Below, one piece after another: positions 58,617 through 64,000 of a stretch of DNA of 64,000 nucleotides. Under the pieces are notes generated by a model. That model had not been told where the DNA came from. It ran no database searches and was given only the letters and a program-made list of their open reading frames with translations. The stretch comes from a bacterium D16-76 (GTDB lineage: Bacteria > Bacillota > Clostridia > Oscillospirales > Acutalibacteraceae). The stretch's first letter is position 1. Each line of letters starts with the position of its first letter. The stretch lies in NCBI GenBank assembly GCA_009917445.1, contig QZEE01000009.1, positions 59,839 through 123,838 on the forward strand, read 5' to 3'. A program made the translations under genes and the position numbers.

Positions 58617-58937
58617 ATGGATTGTAAAAAGCGGGCAGGCCTGTATCTGCTCCGTAAAAAAGGAAAAGCCATCAGTATCCTTCTGCTCATTATGGTCGTT
58701 TCGACCTTTCTTATTTCCTGTTTTTCGCTCCTTGCCGCATCCGAGAAGTTAGCGAGTGATATCCGAGAAGCTTTAGGCGCTGCCTTTTATCTAAGGGCAA
58801 GTACAGGCGTAGTATCAGACGAGAATGGCGAAATGACTGTTACGGAAAATCATATCCGTATTACTGACAATGAGATAAAGCGGATACAAAACTGCGGCAA
58901 TATTGCGTACTACAATCCTATGAATGACTCCTATTAG
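58617..58937 (+). pseudogene. Truncated FtsX/MacB-type ABC permease, N-terminal fragment
   Basis: 106 residues: a basic start (MDCKKRAGLYLLRKKGK), one membrane helix (about 18-41) and the first ~60 residues of a MacB-type periplasmic domain, ending abruptly at YYNPMNDSY. Intact relatives have four helices and 400 or more further residues, and an ATPase gene. The ribosome site (AAAGGAGATGAAGCCTAA) and upstream regulator repeats are intact, so the promoter end survives and the rest was lost where the conjugative-element core begins. The module was probably a peptide-antibiotic sensing and export cargo. Confidence 0.8.
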
Positions 58938-59014
58938 GAACACTGTAATATCAAGGCTTTTCGGAGCCTACACCCACAAAAAAATATTATTTGAGCTATC
59001 ACATTACGCAGAAA

Positions 59015-59047
59015 GCCGTCCGGCATGAAAAAACGGGCGGCTTTTTT
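59015..59047 (+). terminator. Terminator at the end of the AT-rich island
   Basis: GCCGTCC / GGGCGGC stem followed by TTTTTT. GC content rises sharply after it. Confidence 0.75.
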
Positions 59048-59140
59048 GCGTGGATAGCCGGGAGGGAGGCGAAAAAATAGTAACAAAGTTTTAGCGCAAG
59101 ATTTGTGCAACATTCACGAAATTGAAAAAGGAGGTAACGA

Positions 59141-60646
59141 ATGGCAGACGAAAAATTAAACGTGAGCCCGAAGGAAAATCCCCAGCCCAGCTTGTTTGAT
59201 GCCGGCCCGGAGGGTGCTCCTGCCCAGGACGCTCCCGCCCCGGAGCCCCCGGCTCCAGAGAACGCCCCCGAGCAGACTGGCGGCGAACCACCCGCCCAGG
59301 ATGCCCCGGCTGGGGCCCCCGGCGCGGTGAATGTCTCCGCTGACCAGATTGAAAAGCTGATGGCAGAACAGCGGGCGGCGGGACGTGCGGAGGTGGAAAA
59401 GAACGAGCCGCCCGAACCGGAACAGCCGCCCACCCCGGCCCCGGAGGAAAAGGCCGCCGGGGAAAAGGGGCCCGCCCAAAAGGACAAGGCCGCCAAAGAA
59501 AAAACGCCCGAGCCGGATAAGTCCAAGGGCAGGCGGGGCCGCAAGCCCAAGGAAGAAAAAGCGGGGCCCGGCGAACCGGGAGGGACGGGGGCCCGCCGTG
59601 GCCGCCCGGCCAAGGCTGATAAGGCGGCCCCGGACAGGCCCCCGTCCCAACCTCGAGACAAAATGTCCCAAAGCAAGGGGGCCAAGGCCGCCACGGTAAA
59701 GGGCAAGGAAGAGGCCCCCGCTCCCCCTCCTGCGCCGGAACAGCCGCCCCAGCCTCGTGACGCGACCCGCGCCGAAAAGGAAGAGATTGTCTATCTCAAC
59801 CTCTCGGAGCTGTTCCCGTTCAAAGACCATCCCTTTGGGGTGCGGGACGATGCGGAAATGAAAGGGCTTGTGGAGTCCGTCAAGGACAACGGCGTACACC
59901 AGCCCGCGCTGGTGCGTCCCCGGGAGGGCGGCGGCTATGAAATCATCGCGGGCCACCGCCGCCAGCGGGCCAGTGAGCTGGCCGGGTTTGCAAATATGCC
60001 TTGTATCGTCCGCAACATGACGGATGACGAGGCCATCCTTGCGATGACGGACGACAACCTGCGCCACCGGGAAAAGATTCTGCCGATGGAAAAGGCCCAG
60101 TCTCTGAAAATGCAGGTGGAGGCCATCAGCCATCAAGGGACGAAGATGGAGGGCGTGGCCGCCGGGGACGTTGGAAAACGCTCCACGGAAATCGTGGGGG
60201 AACGGAACGGCATGAATTACAAGCAGGTACAGCGGTATATCCGGCTGACCGAGCTTGTGCCGGAGCTCCAGTCTATGGTGAACGAGAAAAAGCTGTCTTT
60301 CACCCCCGCCGTGGAAATCTCGTTCATCAAGCCCAAAAACCAGAGGTTTATCGCCGTTTCCATTGAGGGCGAGCAGGCGTCCCCCTCGCTCTCCCAGGCG
60401 CAGGAGCTCCGCAAGCTGGATAAGGACGGGAAACTGAACGGCGATGTGATAGACGGCATTTTGAGCCGTGAAAAAAAGGAGGTAGACAAAGTGATTATTT
60501 CCGCCGCTGAACTGAACAAGTATTTCGGCAAGGACGCCACGCCCCGGGAAATGAAAGACCAGATTATGTCCCTGCTGGCCGAATGGAAAGAGAAACAGCC
60601 CCCGGAGCGCACCGCCCCGGAGAAAAAGACCGACCGGGAAAAGTAA
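59141..60646 (+). CDS. parB: ParB/Spo0J-family partition protein of a conjugative element
   Basis: A 501-residue protein. Residues 1-205 are low-complexity, rich in Pro, Ala, Glu and Lys, and probably disordered. The ParB N-terminal (CTPase) domain follows (about 222-320): LSELFPFKDHPFGVRDD, then the GHRRQRA box near 272 and NLRHREKILPMEKA. A helix-turn-helix and helical C-terminus follow (about 335-480). Chromosomal Spo0J lacks such a long leader. The neighbours (ArdA, PcfB, VirD4) mark it as part of a Tn1549-like integrative conjugative element, where it may stabilise the excised circle or regulate transfer. A ParA is not in the window. The start follows AAAAAGGAGGTAACGA. Confidence 0.9.
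   Translation: MADEKLNVSPKENPQPSLFDAGPEGAPAQDAPAPEPPAPENAPEQTGGEPPAQDAPAGAPGAVNVSADQIEKLMAEQRAAGRAEVEKNEPPEPEQPPTPAPEEKAAGEKGPAQKDKAAKEKTPEPDKSKGRRGRKPKEEKAGPGEPGGTGARRGRPAKADKAAPDRPPSQPRDKMSQSKGAKAATVKGKEEAPAPPPAPEQPPQPRDATRAEKEEIVYLNLSELFPFKDHPFGVRDDAEMKGLVESVKDNGVHQPALVRPREGGGYEIIAGHRRQRASELAGFANMPCIVRNMTDDEAILAMTDDNLRHREKILPMEKAQSLKMQVEAISHQGTKMEGVAAGDVGKRSTEIVGERNGMNYKQVQRYIRLTELVPELQSMVNEKKLSFTPAVEISFIKPKNQRFIAVSIEGEQASPSLSQAQELRKLDKDGKLNGDVIDGILSREKKEVDKVIISAAELNKYFGKDATPREMKDQIMSLLAEWKEKQPPERTAPEKKTDREK
59655..59669. repeat. 15-bp near-palindrome, copy 1 (inside parB)
   Basis: GAGACA-AAA-TGTCCC, lying within the low-complexity part of parB. The flank CGAGACAAAATGTCCCAAAG is identical to copy 3. 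Confidence 0.75.
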
Positions 60647-60651
60647 GCCTT

Positions 60652-60666
60652 GAGACATTTTGTCCC
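60652..60666. repeat. 15-bp near-palindrome, copy 2 (after parB stop)
   Basis: GAGACA-TTT-TGTCCC, 6 bases past the parB stop. The arms match copies 1 and 3 and the central triplet is complementary (TTT). Confidence 0.75.
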
Positions 60667-60724
60667 GAGGTTTTTCTTTTTCCCGCGCCCCTCCCCCGCG
60701 CCTTGCATAGCGTTCTTTTAGAGA

Positions 60725-60893
60725 GGGGCTCTGGTGGTATATCCCCCGTCGCCGCCTGCTACTGAGCACAGCCGGGAGTGGGCGGTCAAGGGGCGGAACG
60801 CCCGCCGCCTGCGGCGGCTTGCCCTTGACGGCCCGCCCCGGCTGTGCCACCCCTCCCGGCGCGGCGGGGGATATATCCTCCAGAGCCGCCCCC
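60725..60893. repeat. Long imperfect inverted repeat (~170 bases)
   Basis: The left outer arm GGGGCTCTGGTGGTATATCC (from 60725) pairs with GGATATATCCTCCAGAGC (ending near 60889). The inner arms CACAGCCGGG and GGGCGGTCAAGGG pair with CCCTTGACGGCCC and CCGGCTGTG (60819-60847). The centre is GC-rich (CGCCGCCTGCGGCGG). It could be an oriT, a structured RNA or a MITE-like insertion. Confidence 0.65.
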
Positions 60894-60965
60894 TTTCCCA
60901 TGAATGGGAAAGGGCGGGGGGATAGGGTTGAACGACAACTATTAAAATATCGGAGGTAAACGACT

Positions 60966-61307
60966 ATGAAACGACCCCTTGCTTACATCACCGCCGCTTG
61001 GTATGGCGGCGACACGGAAAATGCGGAGCTGGCCGCGCAGTACTGCCGGGCGGTTTACGATGCGGGCTTTGCCCCTATCTGTCCGGCCTTGTTCCTGCCC
61101 CTTTTCCTCAATGACGCGGTTCCCGAGGAGCACAAGAGCAGCATCGACATTGGCCGTGACCTGCTCCGCCGCTCCCGGGTGCTGGTGGTGTGCGGACATA
61201 CCGTCACCGAGTCCATGAAGAACGACATTGCCGTGGCCCAGCGGCTGGGCATCACCGCCACTACCCTTGAGGGCATCCTGACCGTCAAGGGCCAGGGCCG
61301 CCGCTGA
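60966..61307 (+). CDS. DUF7768/DUF4406-like protein
   Basis: A 113-residue protein with the fold pattern of nucleoside deoxyribosyltransferase-like domains: the opening PLAYITAAWYGG, the middle GFAPICPALFLP and VLVVCGHTVTESMKNDIAVAQRLGI. The family is uncharacterised and common in conjugative elements and phages of gut Firmicutes. Nucleotide or nucleoside binding is inferred. The ATG follows ATCGGAGGTAAACGACT. It is one base from the ardA start (coupled). Confidence 0.8.
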   Translation: MKRPLAYITAAWYGGDTENAELAAQYCRAVYDAGFAPICPALFLPLFLNDAVPEEHKSSIDIGRDLLRRSRVLVVCGHTVTESMKNDIAVAQRLGITATTLEGILTVKGQGRR

Positions 61308-61308
61308 C

Positions 61309-62010
61309 GTGGCCGCGCTGTTCGAGGCGTACATTACCAATCTGGGGAAATACAATGAGGGCGAGCTGGTGGGGGAAACGCTGAAATTCCCCACCAGCCC
61401 CCAGGCGGTGGAGGCGCTGTTAAAAAATATCGGCGTGGACGGCATACGCTACGAGGAATTTTTCATCACCAGCTTTGACGGCGATGTGCTGGGGCTCTAT
61501 GACTATCTGGGCGAGTATGAAAATCTGGACGAGCTGAACCATCTGGCCTGCCTGCTCTCGGAGCTCCCCCAAAGTGAGATTGAAAAATTCGAGGCCGCGC
61601 TCCATATCGGGGCGCATACCTCCAGCGTGGCGGACATCATCAACCTTGCGGAAAATCTGGACAGCTTTGAGTTTTACCCGGAGATTGAAAGCGAGGAGGA
61701 TTTGGGCCGTTATTATGCGGAGGATTTGCCGATCCCCGCCGAGCTGAAAGACTACTTTGACTATGAGGCATACGGGCGGGACATATCCATCAACGAGGAC
61801 GGCCACCTTGCCCCCGGCGGCTATATCGTCCAGACGGGCGATATTAAGGAAGTTTATCACGGGATAGAGGATATTCCCAAGGAGCACAAGGTTTTTGCCC
61901 TCCCCCGGCTCTCCATCCGGGAGCAGATGGCCGCCTACAAGGAAGTGATTGACCGTTCCTCTCTGGCGGCTGAACGCAAGCACCCGGAAACGGGCCGGGA
62001 GGAGCGGTGA
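61309..62010 (+). CDS. ardA: Antirestriction protein ArdA
   Basis: A 233-residue, strongly acidic DNA-mimic protein that inhibits type I restriction enzymes, protecting incoming element DNA. Family cues: the opening FEAYITNLGKYNEGEL, the LYDYLGEYENLDELNHLA block (about 63-80), and many surface Asp/Glu throughout. It is longer than Tn916 Orf18 (about 166), with a C-terminal extension. The start is GTG at 61309, one base after the upstream stop. Near-palindrome copy 3 follows its stop. Confidence 0.93.
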   Translation: MAALFEAYITNLGKYNEGELVGETLKFPTSPQAVEALLKNIGVDGIRYEEFFITSFDGDVLGLYDYLGEYENLDELNHLACLLSELPQSEIEKFEAALHIGAHTSSVADIINLAENLDSFEFYPEIESEEDLGRYYAEDLPIPAELKDYFDYEAYGRDISINEDGHLAPGGYIVQTGDIKEVYHGIEDIPKEHKVFALPRLSIREQMAAYKEVIDRSSLAAERKHPETGREER

Positions 62011-62014
62011 CTTC

Positions 62015-62029
62015 GAGACAAAATGTCCC
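62015..62029. repeat. 15-bp near-palindrome, copy 3 (after ardA stop)
   Basis: GAGACA-AAA-TGTCCC, 5 bases past the ardA stop and 43 bases before the pcfB start. Confidence 0.75.
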
Positions 62030-62071
62030 AAAGGCCGGAGGGCTATCCCCCATGAAAGGAGGCGGTTCTGA

Positions 62072-62554
62072 TTGATTGACGAGGATGTTTCCCGGCGCAC
62101 TATTGCGTTATCCATGCGGACGGGAAAGCTGACGGCCCGGGTGCTGGCCTATGCGCTCCGGGCGGCTGGCCGGAAGATACAAAAGGAACGCCGGGCCCAC
62201 CAGACGCCCCACGGCAGGCAGTCCGTGAAAAAGCTGATGGCCCACGGCGCGGCCACGAACAGTATCGAGCTCACCGGGGCCCCAAAAGAATTTGACCGGG
62301 TGGCCCGGAAGTGGAACGTGGATTATGCCTTTTACAAGACCGGGCCGGACAAATATCTGCTGTTCTTCAAGTCCGGGCAGGCGGACGCAATCACCGCTTG
62401 TTTTTCAGAATACTCCCGCCGGGTGCTGGATAAGGCAAAGACTGACCGCGTACCCATCCGGGAACAGCTCAGACGGGCCGCCGCCGAGATACTGCGCCAG
62501 CCCGCGCCCCAAAAGAAAGACCGCGTAAAGGAGGCCGCCCATGAGGACAGATAA
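62072..62554 (+). CDS. PcfB/DUF3801-family conjugation protein
   Basis: A 160-residue protein matching PcfB (DUF3801), a component encoded beside the coupling ATPase in pCF10 and Tn1549-like elements. Typical features: SRRTIALSMRTGKLTARVLAYALR at the start, an IELTGAPKEFDRVARKWNVDYAFYK middle, and a basic tail. It is thought to assist relaxosome or coupling-protein function. The start is TTG at 62072 behind GAAAGGAGG. It overlaps the VirD4 gene by 14 bases. Confidence 0.88.
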   Translation: MIDEDVSRRTIALSMRTGKLTARVLAYALRAAGRKIQKERRAHQTPHGRQSVKKLMAHGAATNSIELTGAPKEFDRVARKWNVDYAFYKTGPDKYLLFFKSGQADAITACFSEYSRRVLDKAKTDRVPIREQLRRAAAEILRQPAPQKKDRVKEAAHEDR

Positions 62555-64000
62555 GCTGAAAAAGTACCTTTTGCCGAACCTCCCCTATCTGTTCATCGCG
62601 TGGGCCTGCCTGAAAGTGGGGACGGCCTACCGTCTGGCGGCGGGGGCGGATTTGGCCCACAAGCTGGTGGGGATGGTGGCGGCCCTCGGCCCGGCCTTTG
62701 CCGACTTCGCGCCGGGGCTCAACCCTTTTGACTGGCTCACTGGCATTGCGGGGGCCGTGGCGATCCGGCTGATTATCTATCAGAAAAGCAAAAAAGCCCA
62801 AAAATACCGCCGGGATGAAGAATATGGTTCGGCCCGCTGGGGAACGGAAAAAGACATCAAGCCGTTCACCGACCCCAGGTTTGAGAACAACATCATTCTG
62901 ACCGGGACGGAATTTCTCACCACCAACACCCGGCCCGCCGTCCCCGCCAATGCCCGGAACCTGAATTGCTGTGTTGTCGGTTCATCCGGCTCCGGCAAGA
63001 CCCGGTTCTGGCTCACGCCCCAGCTTCTGCAGGCCCATTCCTCCTATGTGGTGGTAGACCCCAAAGGCGGGGTGCTGGAGCAGGCCGGGTATTTCCTGCA
63101 AAAGAAAAAGGGATATAAAATCAAGGTTTTTAACAGCATTGATTTTTCCCGCTCCATGCACTATAACCCGCTGGCCTATATCCGCAACGAGGCCGACATT
63201 TTGAAATTCGTCAATACCTTAATAGCCAACACCAAAGGCGAGGGCAAAGAGGGCGACCCATTCTGGACGAAATCAGAAACGCTTTTATACTGTGCCCTTA
63301 TCGCCTATATCATCTTCGAGGGCCCGGACGAGGATAAAAACATGAACACCCTTGTAGACATGATTTCCGGCATGGAGGTCAAGGAGGACGATGACGATTT
63401 TATGAACGCGGTGGACTATATGTTCGCCGGGCTGGAAAAGAGAAAGCCGGACTATTTTGCCGTGAAGCAGTACAAAAAGTACAAGCTGGCCAGCGGCAAG
63501 ACAGCGCGGAGCATACTTATTAGCTGTGGCGCAAGGCTGGCCCCATTTGACATCCCGCAACTCCGGGAGATTATGAGCTATGACGAGATGGAGCTTGACA
63601 AGCTGGGGGACAGACGGACGGCGGCGTTCTTCATCATCAGCGATACCGACACGACCTATAACTTCATCGTGGCCCTTGCCTTTTCGCAGATGTTCAACCT
63701 GCTTTGTGAAAGGGCGGACAACGTACACGGGGGCCGCCTGCCCCATCATGTGCGGGTGCTGTGGGACGAGGCCGCCAACACCGGGCAAGTGCCCAACCTC
63801 GAAAAGCTGGTGGCGGTCATCCGCTCCCGGGAGGTGAGCCTGACGCTGTTCTACCAGCAGTTGGCCCAATGCAAAGCCATCTACGATAAAAACGCGGAAA
63901 CTATTTTAGGCAACATGGACAGCGTGGTGTTCCTCGGGGGCCGGGAGGCCAGCACCATCAAGGAAATATCGGAGAACTGGCTGGGCAAGGCCACCATCTC
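62541..64000 (+). CDS. VirD4/TraG-type coupling ATPase, 3' end beyond window
   Basis: 486 codons are visible. Two N-terminal membrane helices (about 12-30 and 58-76) are followed by the conjugative ATPase: Walker A GSSGSGKT from about residue 147, a VVDPKGG motif near 170, and Walker B LWDEAANTGQ near 415 followed by EKLVAVIRSREVSLTLFYQQLAQ. It brings relaxase-bound DNA to the type IV secretion channel. The sequence stays open to base 64000, so the C-terminus is outside. The ATG follows AAAGGAGGCCGCCC. Confidence 0.93.
   Translation, partial: MRTDKLKKYLLPNLPYLFIAWACLKVGTAYRLAAGADLAHKLVGMVAALGPAFADFAPGLNPFDWLTGIAGAVAIRLIIYQKSKKAQKYRRDEEYGSARWGTEKDIKPFTDPRFENNIILTGTEFLTTNTRPAVPANARNLNCCVVGSSGSGKTRFWLTPQLLQAHSSYVVVDPKGGVLEQAGYFLQKKKGYKIKVFNSIDFSRSMHYNPLAYIRNEADILKFVNTLIANTKGEGKEGDPFWTKSETLLYCALIAYIIFEGPDEDKNMNTLVDMISGMEVKEDDDDFMNAVDYMFAGLEKRKPDYFAVKQYKKYKLASGKTARSILISCGARLAPFDIPQLREIMSYDEMELDKLGDRRTAAFFIISDTDTTYNFIVALAFSQMFNLLCERADNVHGGRLPHHVRVLWDEAANTGQVPNLEKLVAVIRSREVSLTLFYQQLAQCKAIYDKNAETILGNMDSVVFLGGREASTIKEISENWLGKATI

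Follow-up and report, generated by a model that had tools for sequence, protein, structure and literature searches.

An element-wide palindrome array that switches in sequence with an orphan ParB in integrative and conjugative elements of Clostridia

Why should a parB gene carry a palindrome inside its own reading frame, and the same palindrome again just after its stop codon and after the stop codon of ardA, which lies downstream? The question is raised by the right-hand end of the window (the whole stretch of DNA analysed here, 64,000 nucleotides from bacterium D16-76), where an integrative and conjugative element (ICE) begins with parB as its first gene. A first-pass annotation of this DNA had described the three copies and proposed that they are either a partition (parS) cluster or an operator for an element-encoded repressor. 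We find that they belong to an array running through the element, that the array is a real feature whose sequence switches with ParB, and that its palindromes are likely ParB sites. Our preferred reading, to which we give a probability of roughly 0.6, is that they are the sites of the ICE's orphan ParB, which would act as a clamp dependent on cytidine triphosphate (CTP), coat the integrated element and quiet its transfer genes in the manner of KorB.

The palindromes in the window and along related elements

Exact matches to GAGACANNNTGTCCC number three in the window, all in the plus orientation, against a mean of 0.00 in 100 dinucleotide shuffles. The three copies are thus where the first-pass annotation had put them:

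59651..59673 (core 59655-59669), no strand: site 1, inside parB, CCTCGAGACAAAATGTCCCAAAG
60648..60670 (core 60652-60666), no strand: site 2, 3' of the parB stop, CCTTGAGACATTTTGTCCCGAGG
62011..62033 (core 62015-62029), no strand: site 3, 3' of the ardA stop, CTTCGAGACAAAATGTCCCAAAG

The core of site 2 begins 6 nt past the parB stop and that of site 3 begins 5 nt past the ardA stop (62010). Copies 1 and 3 do share a stretch of identity, as had been noted, but it is 21 bases long (TCGAGACAAAATGTCCCAAAG) and not 20. Allowing up to two mismatches adds just four rows at three places in the window, where shuffles average 3.98. The 3.78-Mb draft genome has 19 matches to GRGACANNNTGTCYC and 2 to the reversed pattern; 16 of the 19 lie on three contigs (eight on C79, five on C92 and three on C148, the window contig), and C54, C91 and C119 hold one apiece. 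C92 (L008) carries a second, partly degenerate ICE, whose five sites have a slightly different centre and which retains a broken parB remnant at C92:579-1103.

To place the array in relatives we used the best 80 of 162 related places found with the window ParB, with titles mostly from Clostridia. These 80 ParB loci (1,257,794 bases) contain 246 core matches and 0 matches to each of two control patterns. Nearly all loci with a close ParB carry sites at like places: in parB, after parB, after ardA and on through the transfer genes. Genome-wide placement of the sites was complete for three genomes, G154, G149 and G153. In the closed 2.92-Mb chromosome of Clostridium sp. MD294 ASF356 (G154) all 12 sites fall inside 19 kb of one 22.4-kb ICE, with 0 for the control; all 13 sites of G149 fall inside 20.4 kb, and 13 of the 14 in G153 inside about 23 kb. 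The motif is therefore neither absent near parB in related elements nor, in these three genomes, frequent outside the ICE, absence and frequent chromosomal occurrence being the two outcomes that the first-pass annotation had named as speaking against it.

Across 130 distinct but related contexts the site, which we call type A, has a 23-bp consensus, CTTYGRGACA-N3-TGTCCCRARG. Its four flanking bases per side carry 0.9-1.7 bits, and beyond the 23 bp information is at most 0.33 bits, save for 0.88 at the base adjoining the left end. Each of four ICEs holds an array of 10-13 sites. The sites span about 19-23 kb, from parB to near the recombinase end, at intervals of 0.4-4.6 kb (mean spacing 1.7-2.1 kb in the four ICEs), and 7/12, 7/13, 4/13 and 4/10 of them start within 60 nt past a stop codon, as against 4-6% of random positions. 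In G154, where the gene calls are simple longest-ORF (open reading frame) choices, 10 of 12 sites are intergenic and two lie near the starts of the methylase and NlpC ORFs as drawn. Spacing is very even in G157, with a coefficient of variation of 0.26 that 3 of 20,000 random placements reach, and fairly so in G154, where 218 reach the observed evenness.

Type-A arrays are patchily distributed among species. The extended type-A palindrome is present in 9 of 391 genomes of a class sample, with 10 copies in the window's own genome and one or two in each of the other eight (reversed control in 2 genomes), and in 5 of 147 genomes of an order sample. Scans of viral_contigs gave 1, 0 and 3 loci. In genome G035 each of three loci (L045, L046, L047) has one perfect GGGACAACTTGTCCC-core site and, 4-10 kb from it, a near-copy with a TGTCCA ending.

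The copy inside parB bears on whether it is the DNA or the encoded peptide that is kept. Among 49 distinct type-A parB genes mean entropy across the 18 nt at site 1 is 0.13 bits, where the linker gives 0.88 and no other window in it is as low; the third bases of the GAC, TCC and CAA codons are invariant. This supports the earlier suggestion that the nucleotide sequence itself is selected. The in-gene site is present in 56 of 71 loci with the linker. Thirteen of the 15 linkers lacking it are of types B or C, described below, whose aligned members also lack the peptide encoded by site 1; the other two (L069, L088) are not of another helix type. The left half reads GAGACA, the weaker of the two half-sites, in 59 of the 130 type-A contexts, always as the 5' half on the parB sense strand, both close to parB and close to the recombinase, and GGGACA...TGTCTC in that orientation is found in 0 of 130. 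Since GAGACA...TGTCCC places an A.C mismatch in a sense RNA hairpin, the GAGACA half may avoid a transcript hairpin while preserving the DNA site.

Could the palindromes nevertheless work as RNA hairpins, that is, as terminators or processing sites after genes? Many copies do follow stop codons. The copy after parB precedes a T-run and folds with z -3.82, three G154 copies fold with z -1.99, -0.83 and -4.08, and a terminator scan includes one whole G154 site (L132:3491-3513, minus strand). However, it is the sequence of the stem that is conserved, not merely its pairing, and it switches with ParB; the centre triplets AAA (51/130) and TTT (43/130) are about equally common; the A.C mismatch counts against pairing in sense RNA; and window sites 1 and 3, the former intragenic, fold like shuffles (z 0.28 each). 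On sequence conservation and the folding of sites 1 and 3 we reject the hairpin explanation and give it almost no credence, although four of the six folded copies do form hairpins somewhat.

Recognition helix and site letters

The residues NYKQ at positions 359-362 of the window ParB belong to its recognition helix, and in relatives the site changes with them. Directly after parB, the palindrome reads TCTGGACA-CNG-TGTCCAGA in type B loci and TCTGGYCA-N3-TGRCCAGA in those of type C. Of 57 loci whose parB end is intact, 55 have a type A, B or C site no more than 40 nt past the stop; this count omits the 23 of 80 loci lacking an intact parB 3' end plus 50 nt, and in both exceptions, L092 and L121, the C-terminal end is altered. 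The helices NYKQ, NYKK and NAKQ go with GGGACA, SGKT with TGGACA, SVKT with TGG(C/T)CA, and SVKQ and TVKQ with GGG(C/T)CA. Two residues describe these pairings: V at helix position 2 (not Y, A or G) pairs with C/T instead of A at base -3, and T at helix position 4 (not Q or K) pairs with T instead of G at base -6. All four combinations are found, V with Q coming from G230 and G386; the G230 ParB, searched against phylum genomes, finds 3 of 398 at E <= 1e-60.

In every one of the 63 loci that have a readable helix and a strict post-parB site the two are concordant, these being the same loci from which the rule was drawn. Four of 83 loci lack a readable helix, and 16 of the 79 that have one lack a strict post-stop site. 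Among those excluded, L083, L084, L085, L088 and L090 carry GGGACT-TTT-TGTCCC, with a mismatch adjoining the centre, and several others have altered or cut parB ends.

The change is not confined to the site next to parB. In the type B ICE of G157, 8 of 10 sites occupy junctions where type A elements also have a site (after parB, after ardA, before Maff2, before PrgI, between the VirB4-like and NlpC genes, between NlpC and CD1107, between MobC and relaxase, and after relaxase), and the other two are unplaceable; the arrays have therefore changed as a set. A site also precedes the DUF3801 gene in G154, G149 and G153 (type A) as well as in G157 (type B); no ardA match is listed in G149.

When the helix residues are left out of the tree, types B and C group in a single clade (support 1.0), weakly placed among NYKQ proteins, and G230 and G386 fall in a separate clade (0.997). 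V at position 2 thus occurs in two well-separated clades and has therefore been gained or lost more than once. The NYKK branch (L191, L194, L173), whose position outside the others is weakly supported, still carries type A sites, both ahead of the conserved parB segment and directly behind it. The L181 ParB aligns weakly (2.4 bits) with Thermus thermophilus Spo0J, which places its helix position 2 opposite the Arg of GKARSTV, and by this reading that position may correspond to Caulobacter R173, a proven specificity residue according to the accessible text of PMC7383237.

From these sequence comparisons ParB is the likely binder of the palindromes. The suggestion that they serve the element's own ParB is thus supported by the covariation within the ICE family, the conserved positions and the scarcity outside the ICE in the three fully placed genomes; the partition cluster that came with it is not, as discussed below. 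One could instead imagine that another element-encoded DNA-binding protein reads them. The ICE encodes the small, possibly DNA-binding proteins NikA/MobC and DUF6870, and because backbone genes co-evolve, the covariation, examined for ParB alone, could partly be hitch-hiking. Yet the covariation picks out two particular residues at the start of the ParB recognition helix, and does so for four combinations and across separate clades; the wider ParB family also has palindromes inside parB. We consider a reader other than ParB highly improbable.

That wider family of short ParBs has a perfect 23-bp N3-centred palindrome inside parB, between +418 and +604, in 17 of 42 loci. The 42 loci represent 37 distinct places, five being duplicated (L145/L175, L146/L181, L147/L180, L157/L179, L164/L176), and a palindrome at +10 was excluded from the 17. 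With the one at +10 counted, palindromes are about 16-fold denser inside parB than outside it. The letters vary by lineage and the ends often read CTTC...GAAG; what is seen looks like an in-gene parS. L146/L181 (SVKQ) has no in-gene N3-centred palindrome, and L167 (SYKQ) has an imperfect one that fits the two-residue rule. A search for GG.CA-core palindromes around the short-ParB paralogues mostly found none. In-gene palindromes were seen in L010, L038, L140, L149, L158, L162, L163, L165, L190, L192 and others. The wider ParB family is very common: each of three protein searches returned at least about 8,000 related clusters, in sets that may overlap.

The ParB protein and its element

The window ParB consists of a disordered-looking linker, a ParB_N domain of the CTPase type (residues 219-301) and a helix-turn-helix (HTH). 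HTH_ParB scores 19.5 bits at residues 350-402, under the 22.6 cut-off, and 15.3 bits, also under it, on the ParB of L118; P0122 and P0301 exceed the cut-off. An AlphaFold model of residues 206-501 made with 8 sequences was poor (pLDDT, the predicted local distance difference test, 58), and we used the one made with 44 sequences (pLDDT 84.2). Its structure matches Noc, ParB and KorB, including ParB-nucleotide entries, and the DNA-binding domain superposes on ParB-parS, Noc-NBS (Noc-binding site) and KorB-operator structures. The HTH helices lie at 136-150 and 155-166 of the model, with residues 359-362 at the start of the second. The GxRRxR motif is present as GHRRQR, and together with the fold it suggests that this ParB may switch with CTP.

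What the protein and its surroundings lack bears on partition. A motif search found no ParA-binding motif, [LFI]G[KR]G[LFI] as defined in the accessible part of PMC12704722, in the window ParB. Domain searches found no ParA-type domain among the 19 ORFs of the G154 ICE or in the four window genes 3' of parB, and no AAA_31 match inside the ICE range of G149, G150, G151, G153, G154 or G157, the six genomes covered (G147 and G148, whose contigs could not be paired with their loci, lie outside this count). G148 has a weak partial AAA_31 match at C16:447006, with no open frame at the presumed corresponding place in L065. With the sites spread over the ICE, no ParA recognised and a ParB that lacks the ParA-binding motif, the parS cluster beside parB proposed in the first-pass annotation is not supported. 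In a broader form, the sites might be parS centromeres that segregate the excised, replicating circular ICE by means of a host ParA or some other mechanism. The ParB family fold and the palindromic sites fit this, and a related parB (62% identity over residues 212-501) sits on a circular 13.5-kb plasmid record, OY725853.1 (L191), with type A sites ahead of the conserved parB segment, past the stop codon and again farther along the record. The missing AAA_31 and ParA-type domains and the missing motif speak against it, however, and a dozen element-wide sites would exceed the usual need of partition. We regard segregation as unlikely.

Alternatively, the ParB array could condense or mark ICE DNA, as Noc does or by loading SMC (structural maintenance of chromosomes) complexes, and so act on topology or cell division and not on transcription. 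Against a Noc-like role, the Noc family model TIGR04285 gives the window ParB 70.6 bits where its cut-off is 315, its N-terminal region is a long linker rich in Pro, Ala and Glu, in which no membrane helix is evident by eye in the alignment, and sites on a 22-kb element would probably affect the whole nucleoid little. We judge such a role improbable enough to set it well behind.

Where the ICE begins was located with 65 relatives that have sufficient upstream sequence, 31 of which gave a match left of parB. In 29 of those 31 the alignment starts at window position 58902-58932 (58932 in G154), with no match further left, and this boundary interrupts an ORF (58617-58937) that has no Pfam match. 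Because the relatives stop matching further left and the ORF is cut there, we take 58,902-58,932 as the left end of the ICE. The features to its right are:

58919..64000, plus strand: left part of the ICE, cut short by the end of the contig; left boundary in the interval of about 58902-58932
59141..60646, plus strand: parB, orphan ParB of 501 aa (Pfam ParB_N, 7.8e-18)
60966..61307, plus strand: DUF7768 protein, between sites 2 and 3 (Pfam, 4.4e-21)
61309..62010, plus strand: ArdA antirestriction protein (Pfam, 1.3e-40)
62072..62554, plus strand: DUF3801 protein (Pfam, 7.1e-26)
62541..64000, plus strand: VirD4/TraG-type coupling protein, truncated by the window end (Pfam T4SS-DNA_transf, 2.9e-41)

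The right-hand part of the G154 ICE, methylase gene through serine recombinase, is matched by contig C79 of the window's genome, and this contig probably carries the remaining half of the window's ICE insertion. A piece of an FtsX-like permease adjoins the recombinase there (L006:7591-8577), and the insertion target may be an FtsX-like permease gene beside a two-component system. By Pfam the ICE backbone comprises the coupling protein, Maff2, TrbL, PrgI, a TraG/VirB4-like ATPase, NlpC/P60, a CD1107-like protein, NikA/MobC, relaxase and serine recombinase, which we take to resemble the Tn1549/CTn-type ICEs of Clostridia.

Possible roles of the array and known systems

What might an orphan ParB do with a dozen sites? 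According to the accessible text of PMC11790492, ParB-family proteins with CTP form clamps that close on their sites and slide off, and KorB thereby silences genes at a distance. By analogy, the ICE ParB would load on the palindromes, one every 1-3 kb, as a CTP-dependent clamp; loaded clamps would slide and cover the whole ICE from parB to the recombinase; and the resulting coat would keep the transfer genes quiet, in a way comparable to KorB on plasmid RK2. With copies inside its own gene and just behind it, ParB would be able to limit its own expression. We infer binding, clamp loading and coating, the last from the spacing of the sites, and repression as the use of the coat is suggested by the KorB analogy. 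The operator for an element-encoded repressor put forward in the first-pass annotation would then survive in spirit, with ParB as the repressor.

Several observations weigh against this reading. Promoter prediction found no sigma-70 promoter beside the three window sites, where a narrow promoter-operator reading is accordingly unsupported; one was predicted just 3' of a site in G154. Many sites follow stop codons within a one-directional run of genes and do not lie at recognisable promoters. In neither G149 nor G153 is the spacing clearly regular (2,293 and 1,684 of 20,000 random placements are at least as even), and some genomes hold one or few extended type-A palindromes with no array seen. 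KorB has a ParA partner, IncC, as well as KorA, and no ParA is seen in the ICE. As to the helix rule, 46 of the 63 concordant loci are NYKQ, which together with the rule's origin in these loci makes the independent evidence smaller. In the wider family the rule fails: both positions fit in 1 of 17 (L190, GYKT), and a Q at position 4 is mostly accompanied by T at base -6. Misfits include L169 (SSKQ), L154 (NARN), L149 (SATQ), L192 (SGIQ), and L177 and L148 (SGDT), among others. The rule therefore characterises this ICE family and not ParBs in general.

It is tempting to go further and regard the ParA-less ParB as a whole-element chromatin protein, loaded at intervals of 1-3 kb, whose sites would have switched a dozen at once along with two helix residues, so that co-resident ICEs would be mutually insulated, each coating its own DNA. 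We offer this extension tentatively and would not back it at even odds. Type A and type B loci do occur together in two assemblies, CAJTCG (L060, L118) and CAJTFN (L062, L109), and in a third, NZ_CALPCP (L070 and L072, L113), and different site codes could insulate the ICEs that bear them.

If the coating reading is true, a single orphan ParB would coat an ICE end to end, and two helix residues would predict its site within the ICE family. The family would then supply naturally occurring candidates for insulated ParB-site pairs. It would also permit a direct test of joint change in one protein and a dozen DNA sites, and provide a defined target for studying how transfer is controlled. ICEs carry conjugation genes among gut Clostridia, and no account of their silencing was found in the literature searched.

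Like the chromosomal ParB/Spo0J-parS system, the window ParB has ParB_N, an HTH and a palindromic site; unlike it, no parA adjoins parB and the ParA-binding motif is absent. The ICE sites, with their N3 centre and GGGACA halves, differ from canonical parS. Noc NBS sites are spread over the chromosome, whereas the sites described here are largely ICE-confined, and their ParB falls far under the Noc family cut-off. NBS are 16 bp long (accessible text of PMC7383237).

Many orphan ParBs outside parAB operons, often linked to mobile elements, are reported in the accessible part of PMC12704722, and the ICE ParB fits among them; that part contains no description of ICEs like Tn1549, of arrays of sites or of switching between helix and site. 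For the Tn1549/CTn-type ICEs, the accessible text of PMC5512222 does not mention a ParB site array. Nor did we find a prior description of such an array among the matches listed or in the available portion of PMC12416852, the search having lain mostly outside subscription papers and wholly outside bioRxiv preprints.

The closest comparison is KorB with its O_B sites on RK2, which has IncC as ParA partner, KorA as co-repressor and O_B sites placed relative to promoters, as far as the accessible text of PMC11790492 goes. The ICE differs in having no recognised ParA and in its sites, which are mostly intergenic with one in parB and consist of a 23-bp palindrome with a 3-bp centre. It resembles KorB-type regulation in carrying many candidate operators, 10-13 per ICE, dispersed over a conjugative element.

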